From positions 1 to 34,089 of the IMG/VR virus record IMGVR_UViG_3300042376_000524: a stretch of 34,089 bases of DNA; one strand, given 5' to 3'. Below, piece after piece: positions 4,916-27,000 of the stretch; within the stretch, counting starts at the first letter, position 1, and each line of letters starts with the position of its first letter. The DNA comes from a virus. Made by a program: the position numbers and the translations under genes. The notes below the pieces were generated by a model. The model worked only from the letters and a program-made list of their open reading frames with translations. It was not told where the DNA came from and made no database searches.

Positions 4916-6777
4916 TGGCTTGGGCAGCACTCGGTGCAGCAGCAATCAGCGCAGGCGCTCAGGCGTATGGCGCCAACAGGGTGGCCAAGGCGGGGAGGGT
5001 GAATGCACCCCCGCCTCCCGAGCCGGTGGACGCCGGGAGGGCTGCTCGTGCCTATCTCCTCGGGATGTCCGATCCCGATTTACAGCGCGACCTAATCAAC
5101 GCTGAGGGCACATATCGCCCGCAAAACCTCATCAACACGGCTCGGGACGTTCAGACCAGCCTGATTGGTACGTCAGAGAGCAAGGGCACGCTGGACTTCC
5201 TTAGCGACTCAGCCGACCGGATGGCGGCGCTTAATCAGCGCCTCAGCACTCAGAATGTTGAGTATACGCTGGATCAGTTGAAGGCCTATGGGCCAGAGGC
5301 TACTGCTGCCTATATGGCGGCCAACCCCGGCTTCGCCAATGCGGTGAAGCAGATGGAGAGCCTTGGTGGTCGTCAGGTGAGTGGCTACCTGAATGCGATG
5401 GGCGACTTGGCAATGTCGCCCGGGACTGGGCAGCAGATTACGGCCCGTGGCATCAACGCTCCGGCTAACGTGCGGGCCGACCAAATCACTTCCGGTGGCA
5501 CGCTCACCCCTGAGCGGGTGGCGGCTGAGCGGATTGCGGCTGAGCGAGTGCGGGCAGGACAGGTGCAGGCGGGAAGCATTGGCGCGGGCATTCTAGGAGA
5601 ATCCCTGTACCAGCAGGCCCTTCAGGGCCAGCAGCTCAGCCCCCTGTCGCAGGCCCTTCAGCAGCAGGGTATGGCTCGGGCAGCCACCCCGGGCCAGCTC
5701 TCTGCTGAGGAAATCCGTGCGGCTACGCAGGGCTCCCGAGAGGGCTATGCCAGTTCTGGCCGACTGATGGACAATGCCTCCATCACGGGTGAGGCTCTTG
5801 CTCGTGCGGGTGCAGCCCGTGAGCGCTCTGCTCAGGACATTGCGATGGCGCAGCAGATCAATCAGCAGCTCCTTGGGGCCCAGCAGATGGGCCAGCAGCT
5901 TGCCACGGACGTTCTTCGCACGGACATTCAGCGCCAGCAGGCCAACGTGGGCAACCAGCTTCAGGCTGGTCAGTTCAATGTGGATGCGATGCTGCGTGGC
6001 GACCTCGCCAACCAGCAGACCAACCTTCAGGCCAATCTGGCCAATCAGGACGCCTTCCTCAAGGCGGCGCTGGCCAATCAGCAGACCGGGATGCAGGCCG
6101 GGATGTTCAACATCCAGAACCTTCAGGACGTACAGCGGCTCAATCAGCAGGCCAATCTGCAAGCTAATCTGGCCAATCAGCAGATGGGCTTCAATGTGGC
6201 CCAGCTCGGCTCTGAGCAGGACCTTAGGGCTCAACTTGCCAATCGCCAGTTTGGTCTGGACGAGCTTACGGCTCGCTTCAACCGTCTCAACACCACGACG
6301 GGGATGGAGCAGAATATGCTCAACGCCGACCGTTCGTTTGCCAATCAGTTGGCCAATCAGTATGGCAACATCACGCCTGCTGCGCTGGCCCTGTCTGGCA
6401 TTGGTCGCAATGCGGACGCCATCTCGATGGGCGGCAACGCCCTGAACACGGCGATGAATATGTCCACGCGCAACACGCCTGAGCTGTTCAACCTAGATGC
6501 TGGCGTCAATCTGGCCCTCGCTAACAACGCCAACACGGCCAACTACAATGCCGCCGTGGCTGGCGCCGCTGGTGCGGCTGCCGGGGCCAATGCAAAGGTC
6601 ACCGGGGATATGTACGGCAACATCGCCAAGGGCCTTGGAGCTGCGGCTGGGAACATCAACTGGGGGAATGTGTTCGGAGGCAACACGACTTCCTCCACGC
6701 CCCCTCCTTCACTAGCCAAAACCGGAACCCCGTGGAGCGCCCCCGGCAGCGGATTTAGCTACGGAGGCGGACGCTAA
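4915..6777 (+). CDS. internal virion/ejection protein with helical repeats (620 aa)
   Basis: The ATG at 4915 shares one base with the preceding TAA. The N-terminus is a small Ala/Gly-rich hydrophobic segment (WAALGAAAISAGAQAYGA). Residues about 205-230 carry tandem pentapeptides with a central V or I (ERVAA, ERIAA, ERVRA, GQVQA, GSIGA). Residues 338-447 consist of eleven-residue repeats based on LQANLANQQ. The C-terminus is Gly/Pro/Ser-rich. Long Gln/Asn-rich amphipathic helices and the location beside two other very large proteins fit a podovirus internal core or DNA-ejection protein of the gp14 to gp16 functional class, although there is no recognisable sequence match to T7. No enzymatic motif is seen. 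Confidence 0.6.
   Translation: MAWAALGAAAISAGAQAYGANRVAKAGRVNAPPPPEPVDAGRAARAYLLGMSDPDLQRDLINAEGTYRPQNLINTARDVQTSLIGTSESKGTLDFLSDSADRMAALNQRLSTQNVEYTLDQLKAYGPEATAAYMAANPGFANAVKQMESLGGRQVSGYLNAMGDLAMSPGTGQQITARGINAPANVRADQITSGGTLTPERVAAERIAAERVRAGQVQAGSIGAGILGESLYQQALQGQQLSPLSQALQQQGMARAATPGQLSAEEIRAATQGSREGYASSGRLMDNASITGEALARAGAARERSAQDIAMAQQINQQLLGAQQMGQQLATDVLRTDIQRQQANVGNQLQAGQFNVDAMLRGDLANQQTNLQANLANQDAFLKAALANQQTGMQAGMFNIQNLQDVQRLNQQANLQANLANQQMGFNVAQLGSEQDLRAQLANRQFGLDELTARFNRLNTTTGMEQNMLNADRSFANQLANQYGNITPAALALSGIGRNADAISMGGNALNTAMNMSTRNTPELFNLDAGVNLALANNANTANYNAAVAGAAGAAAGANAKVTGDMYGNIAKGLGAAAGNINWGNVFGGNTTSSTPPPSLAKTGTPWSAPGSGFSYGGGR
5926..6255 (+). repeat. ten tandem 33-bp units encoding an 11-residue helical repeat
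   Basis: Residues 338-447 of the 620-aa protein divide without gaps into ten 11-residue units. Examples are LRGDLANQQTN, LQANLANQDAF, LKAALANQQTG, LQANLANQQMG and LRAQLANRQFG. The consensus is a hydrophobic residue at position 1 and Leu/Phe near position 5, followed by ANQQ. The DNA units are degenerate, with recurring CTGGCCAATCAGCAG-like segments. Eleven-residue periodicity is a known signature of long amphipathic or right-handed coiled helices. Confidence 0.8.
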
Positions 6778-17154: not shown

Positions 17155-17511
17155 CTATTTCTTTTGGCTCATCAAAAACTCCGCCTGCTTGGAGTAGTAG
17201 GTGATCTCGTTGTGCGTGGTCTTGGCGTTGAACGGGCCATATCGCCAGATGTTCGCCCGGGTCCTAGGCGTGTCCTTCAGCTTGCGCCGCTGCACCCAAT
17301 GCTGGGTGTACAGTTTGAACAGGCGAAAGGACCCTTCCATCGTGCCCCGCTCACGCAGGGAAACGTCGTAGCCCGCACGCTTCAGGTCCTCCACTACGAC
17401 AGGCTTGATCTGGGCAGGCCCGTAGGCATCCCCGTTGCGAGCCTTGAGGTTGCCGCCGCTCTCAATCTGCACGATGGCTTGGAACAAGGCGGCAAGGGCT
17501 AGTTCGTTCAC
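17155..17511 (-). CDS. lytic-transglycosylase-like endolysin (118 aa)
   Basis: A compact protein with the SLT/lysozyme-like core. AIVQIESGGNLKARNGDAYG contains the catalytic Glu (E17) in IESGGN, followed by GPAQIKPVVVEDL and a C-terminal IWRYGPFNAKTT. These features match small glycan-cleaving muramidase/transglycosylase proteins found in phages and in bacteria. It would cleave the peptidoglycan backbone to free progeny. There is no signal peptide or membrane segment, so it needs a holin or similar pore. The GTG at 17511 overlaps the ThyX stop (GTGA). It is unusual in being placed among replication genes. Confidence 0.8.
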   Translation of the reverse strand: MNELALAALFQAIVQIESGGNLKARNGDAYGPAQIKPVVVEDLKRAGYDVSLRERGTMEGSFRLFKLYTQHWVQRRKLKDTPRTRANIWRYGPFNAKTTHNEITYYSKQAEFLMSQKK

Positions 17512-18786: not shown

Positions 18787-19106
18787 GGCTTCACCTCCTT
18801 CTCTCGCTTGTGCCACGGGTCAATGGCCAGCTCAATCGTCCCGTCAAAGTTGGTGACGATGTAGCCCTCCTTCACGATGCGCTCCCTCAGCACGCAGAGC
18901 TCCTTCTGAAGGGCGTCAATGGTGGCCCGCAAGGACAGCTCCCGCGAGGCCCCTGCACCATTGCAGATGGCCTGCTGCTCAAGCTCCTCACGGAGAAGTT
19001 GGTTCTCACGTTCCAGCTCCTCCGCAAAGGAGGCGTTCACCCGTGCAGGGCGCCCCACTTGCAGCACCTCCAGCTTGGCCGCTTCCGTTCTTGGTGTGTC
19101 AGTCAT
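18783..19106 (-). CDS. small coiled-coil protein starting MTDTPRT (107 aa)
   Basis: The ATG at 19106 overlaps the end of the upstream membrane peptide by eight bases. The N-terminus MTDTPRTEAAKLE is a start I have seen in many phage hypothetical proteins. It is followed by a coiled coil (SFAEELERENQLLREELEQQ at about 26-45) and a second helix (ATIDALQKELCVLRERIVKE). The C-terminus is short and strand-like. It may oligomerise through the helix. The function is unknown; its pairing with the next gene suggests a tandem duplication. Confidence 0.65.
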   Translation of the reverse strand: MTDTPRTEAAKLEVLQVGRPARVNASFAEELERENQLLREELEQQAICNGAGASRELSLRATIDALQKELCVLRERIVKEGYIVTNFDGTIELAIDPWHKREKEVKP

Positions 19107-19197
19107 AGTCGTTGTTGTCAGGACCAGATTCGCTTTGAATGATGACGCCCACGTTCACCCCAATAACGAACGCAAGCAGGCAGAGAAGGATGCTCAC
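19099..19197 (-). CDS. one-helix membrane peptide (32 aa)
   Basis: GTG at 19197, seven bases after GGAGG and overlapping the preceding stop (GTGA). The product is 32 residues: a hydrophobic helix (SILLCLLAFVIGVNVGVII) followed by an acidic tail (QSESGPDNNDYD). The topology would put the acidic end in the periplasm or cytoplasm depending on orientation. Such short peptides act as pinholins, membrane anchors or toxins in phages; nothing in the sequence decides between them. The ribosome binding site and coupled overlap support translation. Confidence 0.5.
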   Translation of the reverse strand: MSILLCLLAFVIGVNVGVIIQSESGPDNNDYD

Positions 19198-19397
19198 AGC
19201 AGCCCCTCCGCTTTTGCGGTCTTCAGGCAACGGGAAACGTGCCGAGCGGCCATCCGCATCGACTTGCGCTCCTCCTTCTTCTCCCAGCCCGTGGAATAGA
19301 GGGCGTTCAGCCGGTGCGTGCAGGCCTTGGACAGCCAATAGCCCAAATTGTACAGCGGGCTAGCCGCTAGTTTGAATGTGACGTTCTTTGTGTTCAT
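19194..19397 (-). CDS. small basic protein immediately after a terminator (67 aa)
   Basis: The ATG at 19397 lies three bases after the U-tract of the terminator at 19401-19432, with no Shine-Dalgarno between. The product is basic (MNTKNVTFKLAASPLYNLGY, then WEKKEERKSMRMAARHVSRC) and has no recognised domain. Its stop overlaps the next gene's GTG. Because the terminator lies so close, this gene and those below it depend on read-through, antitermination or an unseen promoter. A real coding role is supported by the coupled downstream start. Confidence 0.55.
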   Translation of the reverse strand: MNTKNVTFKLAASPLYNLGYWLSKACTHRLNALYSTGWEKKEERKSMRMAARHVSRCLKTAKAEGLL

Positions 19398-20093: not shown

Positions 20094-20340
20094 TGCCCCC
20101 CAAGAACGGGAGGGAAAATTCGGTGATGTCCTTGTAGTCGTAAGGCAGCCCAGCCGCCTCCCGACACTCCTTCAGCCAGCCAAGCGTATCCTTAGCCCAG
20201 TTGACAGCGTGCTCCTGCTCCTTGCACTCAGGAGCCGGGAAATGCCGCAACATCCCGTCAATGGCGTATTCACACGCCATAAACTTCACAGCAAGCTGAA
20301 GTTGATCTTCACAGGTGAGGTTCAATGTGTTGTCTTTCAT
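20068..20340 (-). CDS. small hypothetical protein at the head of the replication operon (90 aa)
   Basis: ATG at 20340 (MKDNTLNLTCEDQLQLAVKF) is chosen over a GTG nine bases earlier. The product is helical and acidic, with Cys and Trp residues (ECKEQEHAVNWAKDTLGWLKE). The C-terminus is polar (LPFLGGNDQTNNQN). The family is not recognised. It is the first gene of the minus operon, and its end overlaps the SSB-like gene by 26 bases. The upstream 90 bp on this strand is comparatively AT-rich with TTGAAG and TAAAGA 16 bp apart, a possible weak promoter. Confidence 0.6.
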   Translation of the reverse strand: MKDNTLNLTCEDQLQLAVKFMACEYAIDGMLRHFPAPECKEQEHAVNWAKDTLGWLKECREAAGLPYDYKDITEFSLPFLGGNDQTNNQN

Positions 20341-20833
20341 CCCCAGCACCCAATCACTTTTTGTTAGGGGCTGCGAGCTTTTTCTTTAGGAGATTTGTTT
20401 CGCTCTTCAATTCATAGACTTACGCCACACTTTAGCTCCCTACAGGACGCTGGTGCTGATGCAGGAACACGGGGGCAGAGTTCACCCATTGCTGGATGAA
20501 CCACTAGAACGCTGTCTGCCGAGAGACGAGGTTTCCGGGTGCTGCCGCCACGCTGGTAGGCCATTGCCCGTGGTTCTCGGCACGTTCACTCCCAAAGGAG
20601 CCAACATTAAGGGGAGTTGGTAAATTCGTCAGGCTCCCCGCCAGTAGGCCCAAGAACCGCCTTGCACAGGTCGGAGCCGGACCATCCATCCTTCTAACCT
20701 AAGAACGGAAAACCCACCCCCGCTAAGCGTGAGGTGGGTTCCACCGTACAGGGCGACACTCCCATACGATTAACACATAGAACGACTGGCAAGACGGAGA
20801 GTAGCAGGACAACCGCATCCGTCAAGCGCGGAT
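20341..20833. other. structured intergenic region without a gene
   Basis: This 493-bp stretch has no convincing reading frame; a 61-codon minus frame here lacks a start signal and reads as low-information sequence. It holds several perfect short inverted repeats: 20474-20479 with 20515-20520, 20480-20484 with 20497-20501, 20519-20524 with 20575-20580, 20588-20593 with 20612-20617, and 20597-20602 with 20632-20637. The last two sets overlap like alternative folds. This could be an untranslated RNA, a regulatory leader or a replication origin. I matched it to no known RNA family. Confidence 0.4.
20705..20745 (-). terminator. terminator-like hairpin downstream of the minus-strand small gene
   Basis: AACCCACC at 20711-20718 pairs with GGTGGGTT at 20733-20740. 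The stem is extended by ACGG with CCGT beyond a small internal loop. Read on the minus strand, the stem is followed by the U-rich TTCCGTTCTT. It lies about 90 bp after the stop of the 93-aa gene at 20834 and could end that transcript. The tail is weaker than in a classical terminator. Confidence 0.4.
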
Positions 20834-21115
20834 TTACAAAAGTCGTCTTCCCCCGTGCCCATTGCGGGCCCGATTGCTCTTCCGCCCCTCCAACACCAGC
20901 TTCCCGCTGCGGGTGTGGCTCACATCCTTGCCGTCGCCCTTCTTGCCCATCTTCCGATTGGCCTGATTGAGCTCAGAGCGGTAGTCCCGGCGCTCCTCCG
21001 TCGCGTGATAGGCCTTGTTGTAGGCGTTTTTACGCCTTCTGGCCTCTGGGCTGGAGGCGTAGTAGCGGCTGCTATCGGATCGCCCCGTAAATCGCCCTGC
21101 AAGGCCGTTTCTCAT
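20834..21115 (-). CDS. small basic phage protein, KGDGKDVSH/NRARNG type (93 aa)
   Basis: The ATG at 21115 starts a basic protein (MRNGLAGRFTGRSDSSRYYA). Its core, NQANRKMGKKGDGKDVSHTR then LVLEGRKSNRARNGHG, matches a recurrent phage family that looks like a reduced HNH domain (an Asp-x-x-His followed by an Asn-Arg stretch). Activity is not established, and the second His of a full HNH is missing. A TTG at 21133 could extend it by six residues. It is alone on this strand, with a promoter-like TGGTAGAAT eight bases before the ATG and operator-like repeats over it. Confidence 0.7.
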   Translation of the reverse strand: MRNGLAGRFTGRSDSSRYYASSPEARRRKNAYNKAYHATEERRDYRSELNQANRKMGKKGDGKDVSHTRSGKLVLEGRKSNRARNGHGGRRLL

Positions 21116-21123
21116 AGGGTGCC

Positions 21124-21132
21124 ATTCTACCA
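21124..21132 (-). promoter_or_regulatory. extended -10 motif of the minus-strand small gene
   Basis: TGGTAGAAT on the minus strand (TG-G-TAGAAT) lies eight bases before the ATG at 21115. It matches the motif at 42-54, 729-741, 30036-30044 and 32610-32618. Its predicted start site is one or two bases from the ATG, so the message would be nearly leaderless. Confidence 0.5.
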
Positions 21133-21192
21133 ACGGCTAGGGGTGGATCAGCCGGGCACAAGGCTGGGCAACGGCTAGGGGTAGTTCAACCG
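21131..21192. repeat. two 24-bp operator-like direct repeats
   Basis: Two copies at 21131-21154 and 21169-21192 begin with the same 14 bases, CAACGGCTAGGGGT, and differ at only four of 24 positions in all. Each copy has its own dyad: CGGCT with AGCCG in the first, and ACGG with CCGT in the second. The first copy overlaps the promoter-like motif of the minus-strand gene. The layout is that of a repressor operator pair. Confidence 0.6.
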
Positions 21193-21199
21193 TGATAGT

Positions 21200-21221
21200 G
21201 AGAATGGCTTTCGCCATTCTC
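21200..21221. other. perfect 9-bp hairpin
   Basis: GAGAATGGC pairs with GCCATTCTC around a TTTC loop. No T-run follows on either strand, so it does not look like a terminator. It sits between the divergent minus-strand gene and the amidoligase cassette and may be a regulatory or replication structure. Confidence 0.5.
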
Positions 21222-21269
21222 TTGCATCTACCCTCCCCTGCGACCGTTGCCAGCCGCCCTCGCCTTCGC

Positions 21270-21322
21270 TTCATTTCAAATTGAAGTGAAATCCGGCGGC
21301 CGAACCTGACAGAAAATGTCAG
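21270..21322 (+). promoter_or_regulatory. two dyads upstream of the amidoligase cassette
   Basis: 21270-21290 is an imperfect 21-bp palindrome (TTCA.TTCAA.TTGAA.TGAA), and 21306-21322 is a perfect inverted repeat, CTGACA-N5-TGTCAG. They lie 52-104 bases before the first gene of the cassette, where a promoter is expected; CTGACA also resembles a -35 element. They may be binding sites for a host or phage regulator. No clear -10 was identified. Confidence 0.45.
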
Positions 21323-21373
21323 ATTATTGAGCTGGAAAAATCCCGGGCCCGTGTCACCGTCTCCTTCAGAACG

Positions 21374-21682
21374 ATGAACACCACGCCGACACTCACCACC
21401 AACGAAGACATCGCCCACCGATGCGCTCAGCTCGACCTCGCGGTTGATAAGGTCCGATCGACCGCCGAAGGAATGGACAACGCCCGAGGCAAGCCCTGCA
21501 TCCGCCGCCAATGGCACGCCGAGCACAACAAGCGCGTCAAGGAACTATCCAACGCCATTCATTACACCGAGAAAGTTCTGCGCCACCCCGACGCATCGGA
21601 AACGATGCGAGCCCACGCTTGGAGCCTTCACGGATACGCCTGCCGCGTCTTGAACGCCTACCTGCCCTTGACCCCCGCTTGA
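21374..21682 (+). CDS. unknown small protein, first gene of the amidoligase cassette (102 aa)
   Basis: The ATG at 21374 opens a 102-residue helical protein (MNTTPTLTTNEDIAHRCAQL, then DLAVDKVRSTAEGMDNARGK). It has a central RRQWHAEHNKRVKELSNAIH and a C-terminus rich in His and Ala (ETMRAHAWSLHGYACRVLNA). I do not recognise the family. His- and Arg-rich helices would be compatible with a binding or accessory protein. Codon choice (many ACC, GCC, CGC) resembles the two enzymes after it and not the phage genes around. About 100 bp separate it from the amidoligase start. Confidence 0.6.
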   Translation: MNTTPTLTTNEDIAHRCAQLDLAVDKVRSTAEGMDNARGKPCIRRQWHAEHNKRVKELSNAIHYTEKVLRHPDASETMRAHAWSLHGYACRVLNAYLPLTPA

Positions 21683-21781
21683 CCCCGGCGGCGCAAGCCG
21701 CCTCCCGCTTTCGAGGCACACGCCTCAACCCCGCCCGGGCAAGGGCCGCCGCGACACGGCGTGACTACGCGACCAAACACA

Positions 21782-22885
21782 ATGAAACACAAGATCAGTT
21801 GGAAGACCCTTCGCGCCACTTTCCCGGCGGGAGCTTACACCGAAATGGACACGCCCGTTGACCTCGCGACCGCGCAGGCAATCGCCGAGAACCTCGCCCG
21901 ATTGCTTGGACACGACCCCACCGAGGCCGTCGCCATTAACGTCCGATTCGGGCACGGCGTTTTCGTCCCCGGCTTTGTCCTGCGGCAGGTCGGCCCCCGC
22001 AGCGAGCGCAGGCTCTCCGCCAAACTGCGAAGCACGCTGCCCAACTATGCCCGCGACCTTTGCACCAGCCGCATCCGCGACTACCGCCTCCGCTTCCGCC
22101 CCGCGCCCCGCCAGACAAACGACCGCTCCACCGTCCGCACCCGATGGGAATGCGTGCCCCTTCGCCCCAACGCCGAAATCCCGTTGACCACCCGCACGGC
22201 CTTCAAATATTCCCACGCCCTCGGGATTGAGTTCGAATGTGTCGGCCCGATTGACCGGCCCGACCTTATCGCCCGGCTTCCAATGTGGACCCGTTGCGTG
22301 AGTGATGGCTCAATCCGCGCCGGCGCAGGAAACTACGGGCACGAGATCCGTGCCTTACTCGACCGCCAGACCGCCGAGCCCCGCTTGCATCGACTGTGCA
22401 AGATTCTGTCCGATGCCGGCCTTTCCGTAAACCGCAGCACCGGGCTGCATGTCCACCTCGACGCCCGCAACATCCCGACCGAGGCCGAGGCCGTCCGAGT
22501 TGCTCGCCTGATGGACGCTTGGATTTTCGCCCTGCGCGAACTAGTCCCCGCCAGCCGCCGAGAGAACAGCTATTGCAAGTTTGGCGTCAGCACCCGCGAC
22601 CGCTACCGGGCGGTCAACGTGATGGCTTGGAACACCCACCGCACCATTGAGATACGCCTGCACTCCGGGACGGTGGACTATACCAAGACCCTCGCGTGGA
22701 TCCGCTTGTTGGAGACCATCCGCGCCGTCGCCCGCAAGCCCAAGCCCGCCAGCAGTTGCCTTGCCAGCCTTGACCAGTTGCCGCTCACCGACTACGAACG
22801 CGCATATTGGCGCGGCCGCCACCAGCAGCTCAACCCGGCCCTTTACGCCACGACCACCCCGACCGCCACCACGGAGGCCGAATAA
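21782..22885 (+). CDS. COOH-NH2 (ATP-dependent) amidoligase, Amidoligase_2 family
   Basis: The ATG at 21782 is chosen; a GTG at 21761 is possible. The product is 367 aa. Residues 1-135 are a variable N-terminal part. The catalytic domain has the family motifs in order: GIEFE at 148-152, SDGSI at 174-178, HEI at 187-189, TGLHVHLDA at 220-228, YRAVN at 275-279 and TIEIRLHSGTVDYTKTLAWI at 288-307. These correspond to the glutamine-synthetase-like metal and ATP-binding strands of Amidoligase_2 proteins, which join a carboxylate to an amine through an acyl phosphate. The partner glutamine amidotransferase lies 14 bases downstream and probably supplies ammonia. The target is unknown. Confidence 0.85.
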   Translation: MKHKISWKTLRATFPAGAYTEMDTPVDLATAQAIAENLARLLGHDPTEAVAINVRFGHGVFVPGFVLRQVGPRSERRLSAKLRSTLPNYARDLCTSRIRDYRLRFRPAPRQTNDRSTVRTRWECVPLRPNAEIPLTTRTAFKYSHALGIEFECVGPIDRPDLIARLPMWTRCVSDGSIRAGAGNYGHEIRALLDRQTAEPRLHRLCKILSDAGLSVNRSTGLHVHLDARNIPTEAEAVRVARLMDAWIFALRELVPASRRENSYCKFGVSTRDRYRAVNVMAWNTHRTIEIRLHSGTVDYTKTLAWIRLLETIRAVARKPKPASSCLASLDQLPLTDYERAYWRGRHQQLNPALYATTTPTATTEAE

Positions 22886-22898
22886 GGAGACCCCCACA

Positions 22899-23702
22899 AT
22901 GTGCAAAATCCTAATTCTCACCGGGCACAATCCCGCCCAGCGGAATCACCTGATCCGCACCGCTTGGCGCTACTTCGACCGCTCCCGCGAGCGTGACGGA
23001 TTCGGTGCCGCTTGGATCTCAGCCTCCGGCCGACTCGCCCATATCCGAAGCAGCGCCCCAACACTCACCGACCGCCAACCCGATTGGTGCGATGGGTGGC
23101 ACCACGCCGAGAACACCAAGGAGGCAAGCAACGGAGGCCCGCTCCTGATTCACGGCAGAACCGCAACTTGCGGCAAGAGCCTGACCAACACCCACCCAAT
23201 GCTCGCGCCCAACCACGCCTTGATCCACAACGGCGTTGTCTCTTCCGACGAGTACAGGAACGAGTCGACCACCTGCGACAGCGAGCTTATCCTCCGCGCC
23301 TTGCTGGCCAAGTCGACCGATGGCCTAGCCGCAATCAGAGGGTACTTTGCCTTCGCCCACCTCGACCTCGCCGCCAAGCGCTTGACCGTCGCCCGCGATG
23401 ACCAAGCAGGACTCTACTCCGCCAAAATCCCCGGGCACGGGTGGGCATTCGGCACCACCACCGAGGCCGTAGCCATCGCGACCACCGCCTGCCCGGTACC
23501 AGTCAAAGACAACGTCGCCGTTTCCTTCGACACGCGCAAGCCTCACAGACCGCTCAGCATCTCCACCATAACCAAGGCACCGCCCAAACCCCGCACCGAA
23601 TACCAGCCCCAATTCACCAGCGATTGGCCCGCCACCGTGTCCGAACACGTAGCCCGCCGCCACCACCGAACCGCCAGCCTCCGCGACGTAGTCACCCAAT
23701 GA
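22899..23702 (+). CDS. class II glutamine amidotransferase
   Basis: ATG at 22899 with AGGAGA eight bases upstream. Removal of Met exposes the catalytic Cys2 (MCKILILTGH), the N-terminal nucleophile of this class. Other hallmarks are R87 in IHGRTATCG, N111-G112 in LIHNGVV, D127 in TCDSE and the glycine-rich GYFAFAHLDLAAKRLTVARD near 148-167. The 267-aa protein is a stand-alone glutaminase domain of the type that releases ammonia from glutamine for a linked synthetase. Beside the amidoligase it most likely feeds it. The last 45 residues are Pro/Arg/His-rich and not conserved-looking. The stop overlaps the next ATG (ATGA). Confidence 0.9.
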   Translation: MCKILILTGHNPAQRNHLIRTAWRYFDRSRERDGFGAAWISASGRLAHIRSSAPTLTDRQPDWCDGWHHAENTKEASNGGPLLIHGRTATCGKSLTNTHPMLAPNHALIHNGVVSSDEYRNESTTCDSELILRALLAKSTDGLAAIRGYFAFAHLDLAAKRLTVARDDQAGLYSAKIPGHGWAFGTTTEAVAIATTACPVPVKDNVAVSFDTRKPHRPLSISTITKAPPKPRTEYQPQFTSDWPATVSEHVARRHHRTASLRDVVTQ

Positions 23703-23842
23703 GCCGCACCCTTGACTTCCTACTTGGCGCCCTGATGGCCACGGCAGCCCTTGCCTTTGCCCTAATTCTTGTAATCACAGGCACGCACAAGCCCCACCTC
23801 CCACCAGAGGACGACGACCCACCCAAGCCGCCCAACCCCTAG
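23699..23842 (+). CDS. small membrane peptide, last gene of the amidoligase cassette (47 aa)
   Basis: The ATG at 23699 overlaps the amidotransferase stop. The product has a short N-terminus, one hydrophobic helix (LLGALMATAALAFALILVIT) and an acidic, Pro-rich tail (PPEDDDPPKPPNP) likely outside or at the membrane surface. No family is recognised. Its coupling to the two enzymes suggests it anchors them or acts where their product is used, at the inner membrane. The terminator follows 21 bases later, so it closes the cassette. Confidence 0.65.
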   Translation: MSRTLDFLLGALMATAALAFALILVITGTHKPHLPPEDDDPPKPPNP

Positions 23843-23862
23843 CCAAGCCCCACCGACAACAC

Positions 23863-23896
23863 AGCCCCGGCTGAGCCAACGCTCGCCGGGGCTTTT
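23863..23896 (+). terminator. rho-independent terminator of the amidoligase cassette
   Basis: AGCCCCGGC at 23863-23871 pairs with GCCGGGGCT at 23885-23893. An inner stem GAGC with GCTC closes on a CAAC loop, so 13 base pairs form. The next bases are TTTTCC (T-run 23893-23896). This is a strong intrinsic terminator 21 bases after the last cassette stop. Confidence 0.85.
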
Positions 23897-24401
23897 CCAC
23901 GCCCACCGGCCGAGTCACTATCACGCCCAGGCATCGCGATGCCACCTGGGCAATCGGTTCGGATAGCGCCGGCGCCCGCTACGCGGGCGCTTCCGCTCGC
24001 CTATCTTATCCCCGGGGTATCCCCGGGATAATCGCGCCCCTCCACGATGCACCGCACCGCCTCAGTAGAGCAGGGGACCGCCGCCCACAGCAGGGAAGGG
24101 GAGTGGTGCCACCCGTTTTTTGGGGTCGCCCTCGCTTCGCTCGGGGAGGAACAGAGTGACCTGCGGTCACAGGGGGTTCCCTGTACCATTTAATGGGGGG
24201 GGAGGGGGTCTAAAGCGGGCCGGGAGCGTTGTAACCATTGGGTCAACCCGACCTTTAAACTTTTTTACAAACGTCCTCCTGTGAGAATCAGGGGGAGTAA
24301 TGGTATTAAGGGACGGGGGAAACAGGTGAAAAGTTACACCAAAACAGAAGATTTTTAAAAAAAGTCCTATTATGGGCCCGCCTGTCTGGGATTGACAGGG
24401 G

Positions 24402-24417
24402 TGGGGAATATTCCCCA
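24402..24417. other. 16-bp perfect palindrome upstream of the small terminase gene
   Basis: TGGGGAATATTCCCCA is a perfect palindrome ending nine bases before the ATG at 24427. It is a good size for a dimeric binding protein. It may be an operator of the late operon or a terminase recognition site. It overlaps the place a ribosome would bind, so binding could block translation or transcription. Confidence 0.65.
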
Positions 24418-24426
24418 GATGGGGGT

Positions 24427-24954
24427 ATGACGGAAGGCTTGAAGGTGAAGAAGGATTTAGCCCGGTCGTTGGTGGCTGCGGCTGAGAATCGACGTAGCCT
24501 TGAAGCGAGGGACCCGGAGCGGGCGGCTAGGTTGTTGGAGATGATGGCGGAGGGTAGGAGTTGGAAGAGCATCATCCGGGACGAGGGGTGTGATTGGTAC
24601 ACGCTGGTGGGGCTGAGGGCCCGGCACAAGTCGTTGTTGGATAAGCGGAAGGAGATTGTGGCGCAGGATGCGATGGAGTTGATTGAGGGGGCGCGGCTGC
24701 TCCAGCAGGAGAAGATGAGGATGCTGGCTGAGGACGATAGTATGTTGGCCCGCACCAACTTACGTGATTTGGCGATGAGCTATGGCATCTATGCGGACAA
24801 GTTCTTTATGGCGACGGAGGGGAACAGGGTGACGGTGGAGCACAAGAGTAGTGCCCCTAGCTTGGAGGATGCGATGAAGGCGATTGAGGAGGCTAAGGCC
24901 AAGCTGAAGGAGAGCAGCATTGAGGTGGTGGCTAAGCCGGTGGAGGCGTGTTGA
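24427..24954 (+). CDS. terS: small terminase subunit-like protein
   Basis: ATG at 24427 behind GGGGG. The 175-aa protein has an N-terminal helical region, ERAARLLEMMAEGRSWKSII then RDEGCDWYTLVGLRARHKSL, that reads as a helix-turn-helix DNA-binding domain. A long helical middle follows (VAQDAMELIEGARLLQQEKM), then LRDLAMSYGIYADKFFMATE, a segment typical of small terminases, and a charged C-terminal helix. It should bind the packaging site and load the large subunit. Its place two genes before the large terminase supports this. A hairpin at 24949-24978 overlaps its stop. Confidence 0.75.
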   Translation: MTEGLKVKKDLARSLVAAAENRRSLEARDPERAARLLEMMAEGRSWKSIIRDEGCDWYTLVGLRARHKSLLDKRKEIVAQDAMELIEGARLLQQEKMRMLAEDDSMLARTNLRDLAMSYGIYADKFFMATEGNRVTVEHKSSAPSLEDAMKAIEEAKAKLKESSIEVVAKPVEAC

Positions 24955-24995
24955 AAAGACCGGGGTGTTTTTTCAACATCCAGAAAATGGAAACT

Positions 24996-25050
24996 AGGCT
25001 TTCCTTTAATGGCGATTCCCGGGATTAAAGAAAACGAGGCTTTCCTTTAA
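24996..25050 (+). repeat. 14-bp direct repeat between terminase genes
   Basis: AGGCTTTCCTTTAA occurs at 24996-25009 and 25037-25050, 41 bases apart start to start. The second copy ends two bases before the next ATG. The rest of the 98-bp gap contains a 9-bp stem (TGTTGAAAA with TTTTCAACA, 24949-24978). The repeats could bind terminase or a regulator. Confidence 0.6.
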
Positions 25051-25052
25051 CA

Positions 25053-25397
25053 ATGACTGACCAAGAGTGGGTGGATGCGCGGGCCAAGGTACTGAGTGAC
25101 CCTGATAGGCCGCTGAACGAGGGCTTCCTGATGGCCCAGAAGGAATGGAAGTGGAGTGCTCGCAGGGCCATCTGGGGGCACAGCTACTACCATTGGACGT
25201 ACAAGCGCTACCTGTACGAGTTTGACATCATCCCATTTGTGAGGCTTCAGGTGCGCCGCAGGCACAACTGGGAGGCGGAACACCTGAAGATAGAGGCGCC
25301 TGCGGACCTCACGCTGCGGGTGTCCTTTGGTTGCTTTGGCGCAGAGGGTGGGTTTTCCGTTACGACGGGAATGCGGAAGTTCCACTATGGCGCTTAG
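25053..25397 (+). CDS. hypothetical protein between terminase genes (114 aa)
   Basis: ATG at 25053, directly after the repeat, without a Shine-Dalgarno. The product begins MTDQEWVDARAKVLSDPDRP, is rich in aromatic and basic residues (WKWSARRAIWGHSYYHWTYK) and ends with a strand-rich part (RVSFGCFGAEGGFSVTTG). The family is not recognised. It overlaps the large terminase start by 11 bases, so it is translationally linked to packaging genes. It could be a packaging accessory or an unrelated insertion in the operon. Confidence 0.6.
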   Translation: MTDQEWVDARAKVLSDPDRPLNEGFLMAQKEWKWSARRAIWGHSYYHWTYKRYLYEFDIIPFVRLQVRRRHNWEAEHLKIEAPADLTLRVSFGCFGAEGGFSVTTGMRKFHYGA

Positions 25398-27000
25398 TTG
25401 GGAGCCGCACGAGGTGCTGAAGCCACCCTCCAACGAGGAGCTGGCGGCAATGAAGCCGGAGGATGTCCTCAAGCTTCACGAGGTCTACCATTCGGCCATT
25501 GCGAACAGCAAACGGGACCCGTACAGGTATGGCTGGAAGCTGCCCCATTGGAAGGATGCGGAGGAGCTCCTGACGGTGCATTCCGAGCTGCTGGTGAGCG
25601 GTGGCAACCGGAGCGGGAAGACGAGCTGGGCAGCCCACGCCGTGGTGAAGGCGGCGGTGGAGAACCCGGGGTCGGTCATAATGTGCTTTGCCCAGAATGC
25701 GGATGTGTCCATCCGGCAGCAGCAGAGTGCGGTGTACGACGCCCTGCCCGAGGAGTTTAAGACCAAGGTGCTGGGTACTGAGGAGAACGTGTCCTACACC
25801 CGGAAGAACGGGTTCTCCAAGAGCAGCCTCATCCTGCCCGGCAGCAAGAGCTCGATCATATTCAAGACTTATGCCCAATTCCTTAACAACGACACAATCC
25901 TTGAGGGTGCTGAGCTTGGTAGCCGGAGTCCTAGCTGGCTTAACATTGGCGCTTGGTGTGACGAATATCTCGTCGGCCCGGAACTCCTTGGGACTCTTCG
26001 TTTTCGCCTCGCTACTCGCAACAGCAAGCTGGTCGTTACTTTTACACCTATCGACGGATACACCGAGGTTGTCCGCGACTACGTGCAAGGGGCGGAGACG
26101 TTCCAAAGCAAGCCAGCCGAGCTTCTCGGTGGCAGGAGCGTCCCATACCTACAGCGCTCAAGGAACCGGGACGCAGGCATCATCTACTTCCACAGTAGGG
26201 ACAACCCCTTCGGTGGTTACGACCGTATCGCCAAGGACCTTGCGAACAGGCCGGAAGCGGAAATCCTCACCCGCGCCTACGGCATAGCCACCAAGTCGCT
26301 GTCCACCCGCTTTCCCAACTTTAGCCGGGAAGTGAACGTGGTGGAGCACAAGTCGATCAACCTGAAGGGTACGACCAAGTACCTCATCCTAGACCCTGCT
26401 GGCCGGAAGAACTGGTTTATGGCGTGGGTGGCGGTGGATGAGTCGGATACGTGGTGGGTTTATCGTGAGTGGCCCGACATCAACGTGGGCGACTGGGCCA
26501 AGTGGCAGGGCGGCAAGTGGGTGGGCGGGGAGGGCTCAAAGGGCCTTGGTTACGGGATACGTGACTACGTTGACCTGATTACGGGGACGGAGGCCGAAAC
26601 GGGGGACGCCATCTTTGAGCGGCTGATTGACCCCCGCCTTGGTGCAGCCAAATATCAGACACAAACCGGCGTATCGTCCGTTATGGCTGACCTTGAGGAT
26701 GCCGGGTTGGTGTTTATGCCTGCCCCGGGGTTGGACATCGAAGAGGGTTTGCAGGCCATCCAGACGAAGCTGGCCTACAACCGGAAGGCCCCGATGGACG
26801 CCCTCAATCGCCCGCACCTGTACATCTCAGACCGTTGCGAGAACATCATCCAAGCCTTTCAGGAATACACGGCGGAAGGCGGGCTGGATGAGGCGTGGAA
26901 GGACCCGATTGACGTTCTCCGCTACGCCGCCGTGGCCGACATTCGTTACATAGCCCCCGGTCAGATGACCACTACCAGACCTAAAAATGCCTACTATTGA
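25387..27000 (+). CDS. terL: large terminase subunit
   Basis: The ATG at 25387, preceded by GGAAG, gives 537 aa. The ATPase half has Walker A SGGNRSGKT at 71-79, Walker B NIGAWCDE at 186-193 and the coupling motif LVVTFTP at 215-221. The nuclease half has D336 in KYLILDPAGRKN (RNase H-fold first Asp) and a conserved C-terminal DPIDVLRYAAVADIRY. The protein pumps DNA into the head with ATP and cuts it to length. It is the motor that docks on the portal encoded two genes later. The C-terminus overlaps the next gene by 14 bases. Confidence 0.95.
   Translation: MALSWEPHEVLKPPSNEELAAMKPEDVLKLHEVYHSAIANSKRDPYRYGWKLPHWKDAEELLTVHSELLVSGGNRSGKTSWAAHAVVKAAVENPGSVIMCFAQNADVSIRQQQSAVYDALPEEFKTKVLGTEENVSYTRKNGFSKSSLILPGSKSSIIFKTYAQFLNNDTILEGAELGSRSPSWLNIGAWCDEYLVGPELLGTLRFRLATRNSKLVVTFTPIDGYTEVVRDYVQGAETFQSKPAELLGGRSVPYLQRSRNRDAGIIYFHSRDNPFGGYDRIAKDLANRPEAEILTRAYGIATKSLSTRFPNFSREVNVVEHKSINLKGTTKYLILDPAGRKNWFMAWVAVDESDTWWVYREWPDINVGDWAKWQGGKWVGGEGSKGLGYGIRDYVDLITGTEAETGDAIFERLIDPRLGAAKYQTQTGVSSVMADLEDAGLVFMPAPGLDIEEGLQAIQTKLAYNRKAPMDALNRPHLYISDRCENIIQAFQEYTAEGGLDEAWKDPIDVLRYAAVADIRYIAPGQMTTTRPKNAYY

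Follow-up and report, generated by a model that had tools for sequence, protein, structure and literature searches.

A predicted two-subunit glutamine-dependent amidoligase in a swappable slot that precedes the terminase genes in a small tailed phage

We analyzed a stretch of phage DNA, hereafter the window, that comprises a complete IMG/VR record of 34,089 bases. Two of its genes, B and C (Table 1), most likely form a swappable accessory module that lies before the terminase genes and encodes a glutamine-dependent amidoligase. The explanation we favor, with reasonable though not high confidence, is that B and C are the two subunits of this enzyme, that they occupy an exchangeable slot and, far more tentatively, that their likeliest target is an envelope carboxylate. 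To judge from the chemistry of the families, Cys2 of the glutamine amidotransferase (GATase) would hydrolyze glutamine and free ammonia, while the glutamine synthetase (GS)-fold ligase would activate a carboxylate with ATP and join the freed ammonia to it in an amide bond. The module lies beside the terminase genes and is accessory rather than core machinery in this small tailed phage, as its replacement in a sister phage shows. The four ORFs A to D had been named in an earlier note on this DNA, and all four are present.

Table 1. Positions of the genes and regions discussed, in window coordinates
Feature	Coordinates	Strand	Description
Gene A	21374-21682	+	ORF, 102 aa, no assigned function; lineage-specific, fast-evolving
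Gene B	21782-22885	+	Amidoligase_2 (GS-fold COOH-NH2 ligase, predicted); alternative GTG start 21761
Gene C	22899-23702	+	Class II glutamine amidotransferase (GATase), Cys2 nucleophile
Gene D	23699-23842	+	47-aa peptide with a single transmembrane (TM) helix and an acidic Pro-rich tail; overlaps the gene C stop by 4 nt (ATGA)
Exchange slot	20729-24240		Stretch swapped out in sister phage L105
Slot right flank	24427-27000	+	TerS-like gene 24427-24954, 114-aa ORF, TerL 25327-27000

Gene B matches PF12224 in a Pfam search (E=3.2e-13, 50.5 bits, against a curated cut-off of 22) and phrog_2443 in a PHROG search (4.4e-17). Counting from the residue after Met, residues E149, E151, D174, E187, H222, H224, D226, N278, E289 and R291 are invariant in a six-member alignment, and some 60-80 relatives retain nearly all of the active-site residues wherever the alignment covers those positions. 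With the Pfam score above its cut-off and the active-site positions conserved, the earlier reading of B as an Amidoligase_2 domain with its motif set is upheld. The gene probably starts at the ATG and not at the upstream GTG, as the ATG is kept in four sister phages. Profile searches against solved structures gave no match. An AlphaFold model of B is of moderate confidence (mean pLDDT 64; about 73-93 across residues 121-250); when this model was compared with the PDB, the ten best matches by E-value were glutamine synthetases (probability 0.89-1.00, Foldseek E 1.3e-3, TM score around 0.3). Both structure models were built from small alignments of 6 and 8 sequences, and the model of C (pLDDT 48) is too poor for use.

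The sequence of C begins MCK, carries C2, R87, N111, G112 and D127, and exceeds the Pfam cut-offs of both PF13522 (E=2.5e-11, 44.2 bits, cut-off 27) and PF13537. The Cys, Arg, Asn-Gly and Asp are invariant in relatives wherever the alignment reaches. Every position that the earlier note had named in calling C a class II amidotransferase (Cys2, Arg87, Asn111-Gly112 and Asp127) is thus correct.

In the window, B and C are on the same strand and separated by 13 nt. Profile-guided scans of viral contigs returned about 90 relatives, and at ligase identities of 44% or more, every locus whose contig extends further has the GATase as its next same-strand gene, mostly within about 25 nt. This near-universal adjacency, together with the motifs, gives good support to the proposal that the GATase would feed ammonia to the GS-fold ligase.

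This pair of enzymes is of a known kind, old and widespread. Among annotated phages, it is present in Arthrobacter phages Salgado and Ottawa, Aeromonas phage LAh_9, LUZ24, tf and phiEco32; Porphyromonas and Bacillus phages have the ligase with no GATase annotated beside it. In podoviruses, the pair belongs to a cassette for which changes to peptidoglycan and a block to superinfection have been hypothesized (PMC5498523). In OM43 phages, it has been described as a set of auxiliary genes, also with a hypothesized role in the wall or superinfection (PMC10580990), and for the planctomycete phage ZRK32 an auxiliary metabolic role, in nitrogen use, was proposed for the same two genes (PMC10945688). 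The latter two papers refer to a prediction from comparative genomics that Iyer and colleagues made in 2009. The literature that we found on phage amidoligase-GATase pairs consists of predictions, with no tested target. Scans of bacterial genome contigs yielded no bacterial or prophage homologue, and hence no host.

The evidence that the pair is exchangeable comes from phages with similar terminases. A TerL scan gave 397 relatives, of which the best 80 were kept. In L105 and L106, TerL is 99% and TerS 97% identical to the window, but neither an amidoligase nor a GATase is present. The L105 DNA loses its homology to the window at window position 20728 and regains it at 24241. Since a nearly identical phage lives without it, the pair is accessory. 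In its place, L105 has a 490-aa protein with the motifs HELGH and, vWA-like, LIDTSGSM, both recognized by eye; the protein matches phrog_33218 (5.6e-16) and has no Pfam match. Proteins of this HExxH/vWA-like type, 490-494 aa in length, occur at L105:3684-5156 and L172:5359-6843 (HELGH and HELMH; LIDTSGSM and IIDASGSM, respectively). A third setting involves DUF7227 proteins (PF23872, 2.2e-84), e.g., in phages L115, L118 and L121.

Several other features in and around the slot were observed. The 584 nt between D and the TerS gene (23843-24426) hold no convincing gene, are 94-97% identical among sisters and are more conserved than the neighboring genes A-D, making them a candidate regulatory or packaging region. 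Between A and B is a GC-rich hairpin (21687-21702, GGCGGC-GCAA-GCCGCC), whose surrounding 115 nt fold only slightly better than shuffled sequences (z -1.7). Promoter, terminator and Rfam scans gave no result above chance or threshold. In L028 (4261-6308), a PAPS-reductase-like gene (a weak match, below its cut-off) and a DUF932 gene lie 3' of the amidoligase-GATase-TM set, and a DUF932-like gene was also read near the pair in L029 and L035.

Comparison with named systems indicates what is shared and what is distinct. The peptidoglycan modification cassette of LUZ24, tf, phiEco32 and RIO-1, like the window, has an Amidoligase_2 gene with a class II GATase gene directly after it (PMC5498523). 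However, the LUZ24-type cassette adds a COOH-NH2 ligase, an ATP-grasp ligase and a gamma-glutamyl cyclotransferase, and its GATases are large (510 aa in LUZ24 and 676 aa in phiEco32). Searching the window with the LUZ24, phiEco32 and C75C1 copies revealed no ATP-grasp ligase, cyclotransferase or second ligase, in a record that may be incomplete. With these three extra enzymes undetected, we rejected membership of the window in the full LUZ24/phiEco32 cassette. The gene that follows the GATase also differs: in the clade of the window it is the TM peptide D, whereas LUZ24 gp20, tf_23 and phiEco32 82 are not TM proteins, and D was therefore rejected as a counterpart of the cassette's third gene. 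A distant pair in L042 is followed by a 77-aa protein (6233-6466) that has no TM helix or profile match and, judged by eye, is similar to the small soluble proteins encoded behind the GATase genes of LUZ24, tf and phiEco32.

Salgado and Ottawa have the same two genes as the window, in the same order and on the same strand, and no ATP-grasp ligase or cyclotransferase is annotated in the stretch read. However, their ligase is only about 27-29% identical, and the pair follows a helicase and two small genes rather than preceding the terminase. The closest annotated genome is C75C1 (OQ984151), whose major head protein is 57% identical. It has a similar gene order, with an amidoligase beside the terminase genes and a GATase-like domain nearby, but this amidoligase is on the opposite strand and very diverged (26.5 bits), the GATase-like domain is fused to a gamma-glutamyl cyclotransferase, and no D-like peptide was found. 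The C75C1 gene annotated as gamma-glutamyl cyclotransferase (20149-21045, minus strand) starts MCLII...HFRFAT...NCHPF, which we read as a class II GATase-like domain, with SNG replacing the usual HNG. MurT-GatD, which has a Mur-ligase fold and a class I-type GATase, is alike in outline, in that a GATase and an ATP-dependent ligase together convert a carboxylate to an amide; this is an analogy, not membership. MurT-GatD is a peptidoglycan amidation enzyme (PMC3267633, PMC5871853).

We investigated selection on the four genes by computing dN/dS among four sister phages (the window, L004, L006 and L008). Values are 0.02-0.10 for D, 0.07-0.20 for C, 0.13-0.37 for B and 0.37-0.67 for A. The quickest-changing parts are A and the N-terminal region of B, while the GATase is almost constant: in L008, the first 140 residues of B are strongly diverged, being 55% identical at the DNA level and the catalytic part 80%, and the GATase protein is 97% identical. 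Gene A is only 55-60% identical to its sister copies, compared with 97-100% for the terminase small subunit. It probably codes for a protein, given that its start and frame are kept in four phages with the dN/dS above, but it occurs only in these sisters and matches nothing in Pfam, PHROG, NCBIfam or PADLOC. Gene A is most likely a lineage-specific neighbor of the pair. The fast change of A and of the N-terminal region of B may reflect shifting substrate specificity.

This pattern is relevant to the idea that the pair acts on a protein of the host or phage, whose carboxylates it would amidate or conjugate, e.g., to blunt a host defense or transcription factor. Specificity would then be set by A or by the ligase's variable N-terminal region, or one of these would be the substrate. 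Under this idea, which we consider rather unlikely, the contrast between a nearly constant GATase and a fast-changing A and ligase N-terminal region would be expected, the accessory slot would be a natural location, and there is precedent in that GS-fold and ATP-grasp ligases have been predicted to be protein modifiers (PMC2588565, PMC7824862). However, A is absent outside the four sisters, and PADLOC gave no match. Because A is this restricted and the pair is widespread, A cannot be a general substrate.

As the likeliest target we instead propose, tentatively, a carboxylate of a host envelope peptide or of its gamma-glutamyl precursors. An envelope altered in this way would render the infected cell less accessible to competing phages or wall enzymes. 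In L014, L015, L041-L043 and L045, the pair is closely preceded by a lysozyme/SLT-like gene, although Pfam SLT matches these proteins only at E 0.01-0.025 in the two tested. The counterpart in the window is about 4 kb from the pair and on the other strand (17155-17511, minus). This previously unannotated lysozyme/SLT-like protein (IVQIESGG...GPAQIK), a likely endolysin, was found by a profile built from relatives (E 3.6e-36) and missed by Pfam. The upstream lysozyme-like genes and the C75C1 fusion point, though not conclusively, to chemistry on gamma-glutamyl groups or envelope peptides. The same fusion of a gamma-glutamyl cyclotransferase to a GATase-like domain is also compatible with the pair making or changing a small molecule, such as a gamma-glutamyl amide or a nitrogen metabolite, as an auxiliary aid to nitrogen use in infection, in line with the proposal for ZRK32 (PMC10945688). 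Nonetheless, no further metabolic gene was recognized in the slot, no cyclotransferase is detectable in the record, and the alternative slot protein, HExxH/vWA-like, is non-metabolic by appearance. We regard a small-molecule product as unlikely, and more so than a protein target.

The remaining gene, D, raises the question of whether the module extends beyond the two enzymes. Its low dN/dS indicates a real protein under strong purifying selection, and these values and its position eliminate a spurious ORF of high-GC DNA. The coupled one-helix peptide of the earlier note is therefore a genuine 47-aa gene that overlaps the GATase stop by 4 nt. It has no family match in Pfam, PHROG or NCBIfam. 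By contrast, the earlier suggestion that A-B-C-D make a four-gene unit failed: a neighborhood search showed that the four are not kept together, as A is confined to four sisters, D is missing after several pairs and a D homologue also follows an unrelated 490-aa gene. TM peptides overlap the GATase stop by 4 nt in L011, L012, L017-L020, L023-L029, L035 and L040, and a coupled TM peptide is missing after the pair in L014, L042-L046 and L049.

The D homologue in L105 directly follows the 490-aa protein, again with an ATGA overlap, and scores 34.5 bits against a D profile built without it, a score reached by none of 200 shuffles. The layout in L172 is the same, with a weaker D match (13.0 bits). 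Coupled 30-aa TM peptides also trail DUF7227 proteins; by eye they resemble the peptides that follow the GATases of L028 and L035, but they have no score against the D profile. Of 49 distinct GATases, 16 have a coupled TM peptide next to them on the 3' side, as do both HExxH/vWA-like genes and 5 of 7 DUF7227 genes, versus 6 of 647 other large ORFs. Fisher tests of this enrichment give p-values of about 1.5e-15 and 6e-12, which overstate the evidence because the sequences are related and the contrast was picked after seeing the data.

Because its homologue in L105 is behind an unrelated slot protein, D cannot be a subunit dedicated to the amidoligase. It would be a module-associated membrane protein, and is either a general tether for slot cargo or a small membrane or lysis protein located there. 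A minority possibility, but one with an appreciable chance, is that D itself is a small holin-like or lysis-timing protein beside the slot cargo and functionally unrelated to the amidoligase. Its 47-aa length, single TM helix and homologue after an unrelated gene are in keeping with such a role, as is the arrangement in L116-like phages, where the 30-aa TM peptide after DUF7227 is on the same strand as, and upstream of, a lysozyme-like gene. However, the L116-type peptide does not score against the D profile, and the lysozyme-like gene of the window is elsewhere and on the opposite strand, so that D is not a small membrane protein beside an endolysin gene, which is how a holin would be recognized. 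Moreover, D matches no holin profile in Pfam or PHROG, and the window has a second conserved TM peptide (19099-19338, minus). This 79-aa ORF, with a strong TM helix and 57-90% identity in sisters, is a candidate holin or membrane protein in its own right. A more speculative view, to which we assign a low probability, is that the coupled single-TM peptide is the constant part of the slot and brings different cytosolic effectors to the inner membrane. If this is true, one slot would deliver alternative envelope-modifying activities: the amidoligase-GATase, the HExxH/vWA-like protein and possibly DUF7227.

As far as we could find, the minimal two-enzyme form, the exchange slot and the shared coupled membrane peptide are undescribed. 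With only two enzymes, a replacement that occurs naturally in a sister phage, and a ligase whose N-terminal region varies next to a nearly constant GATase, the pair offers a simpler system for testing than the larger sets of the LUZ24 type. Since the membrane peptide is shared, studies may need to address the slot as a whole rather than just the enzyme.
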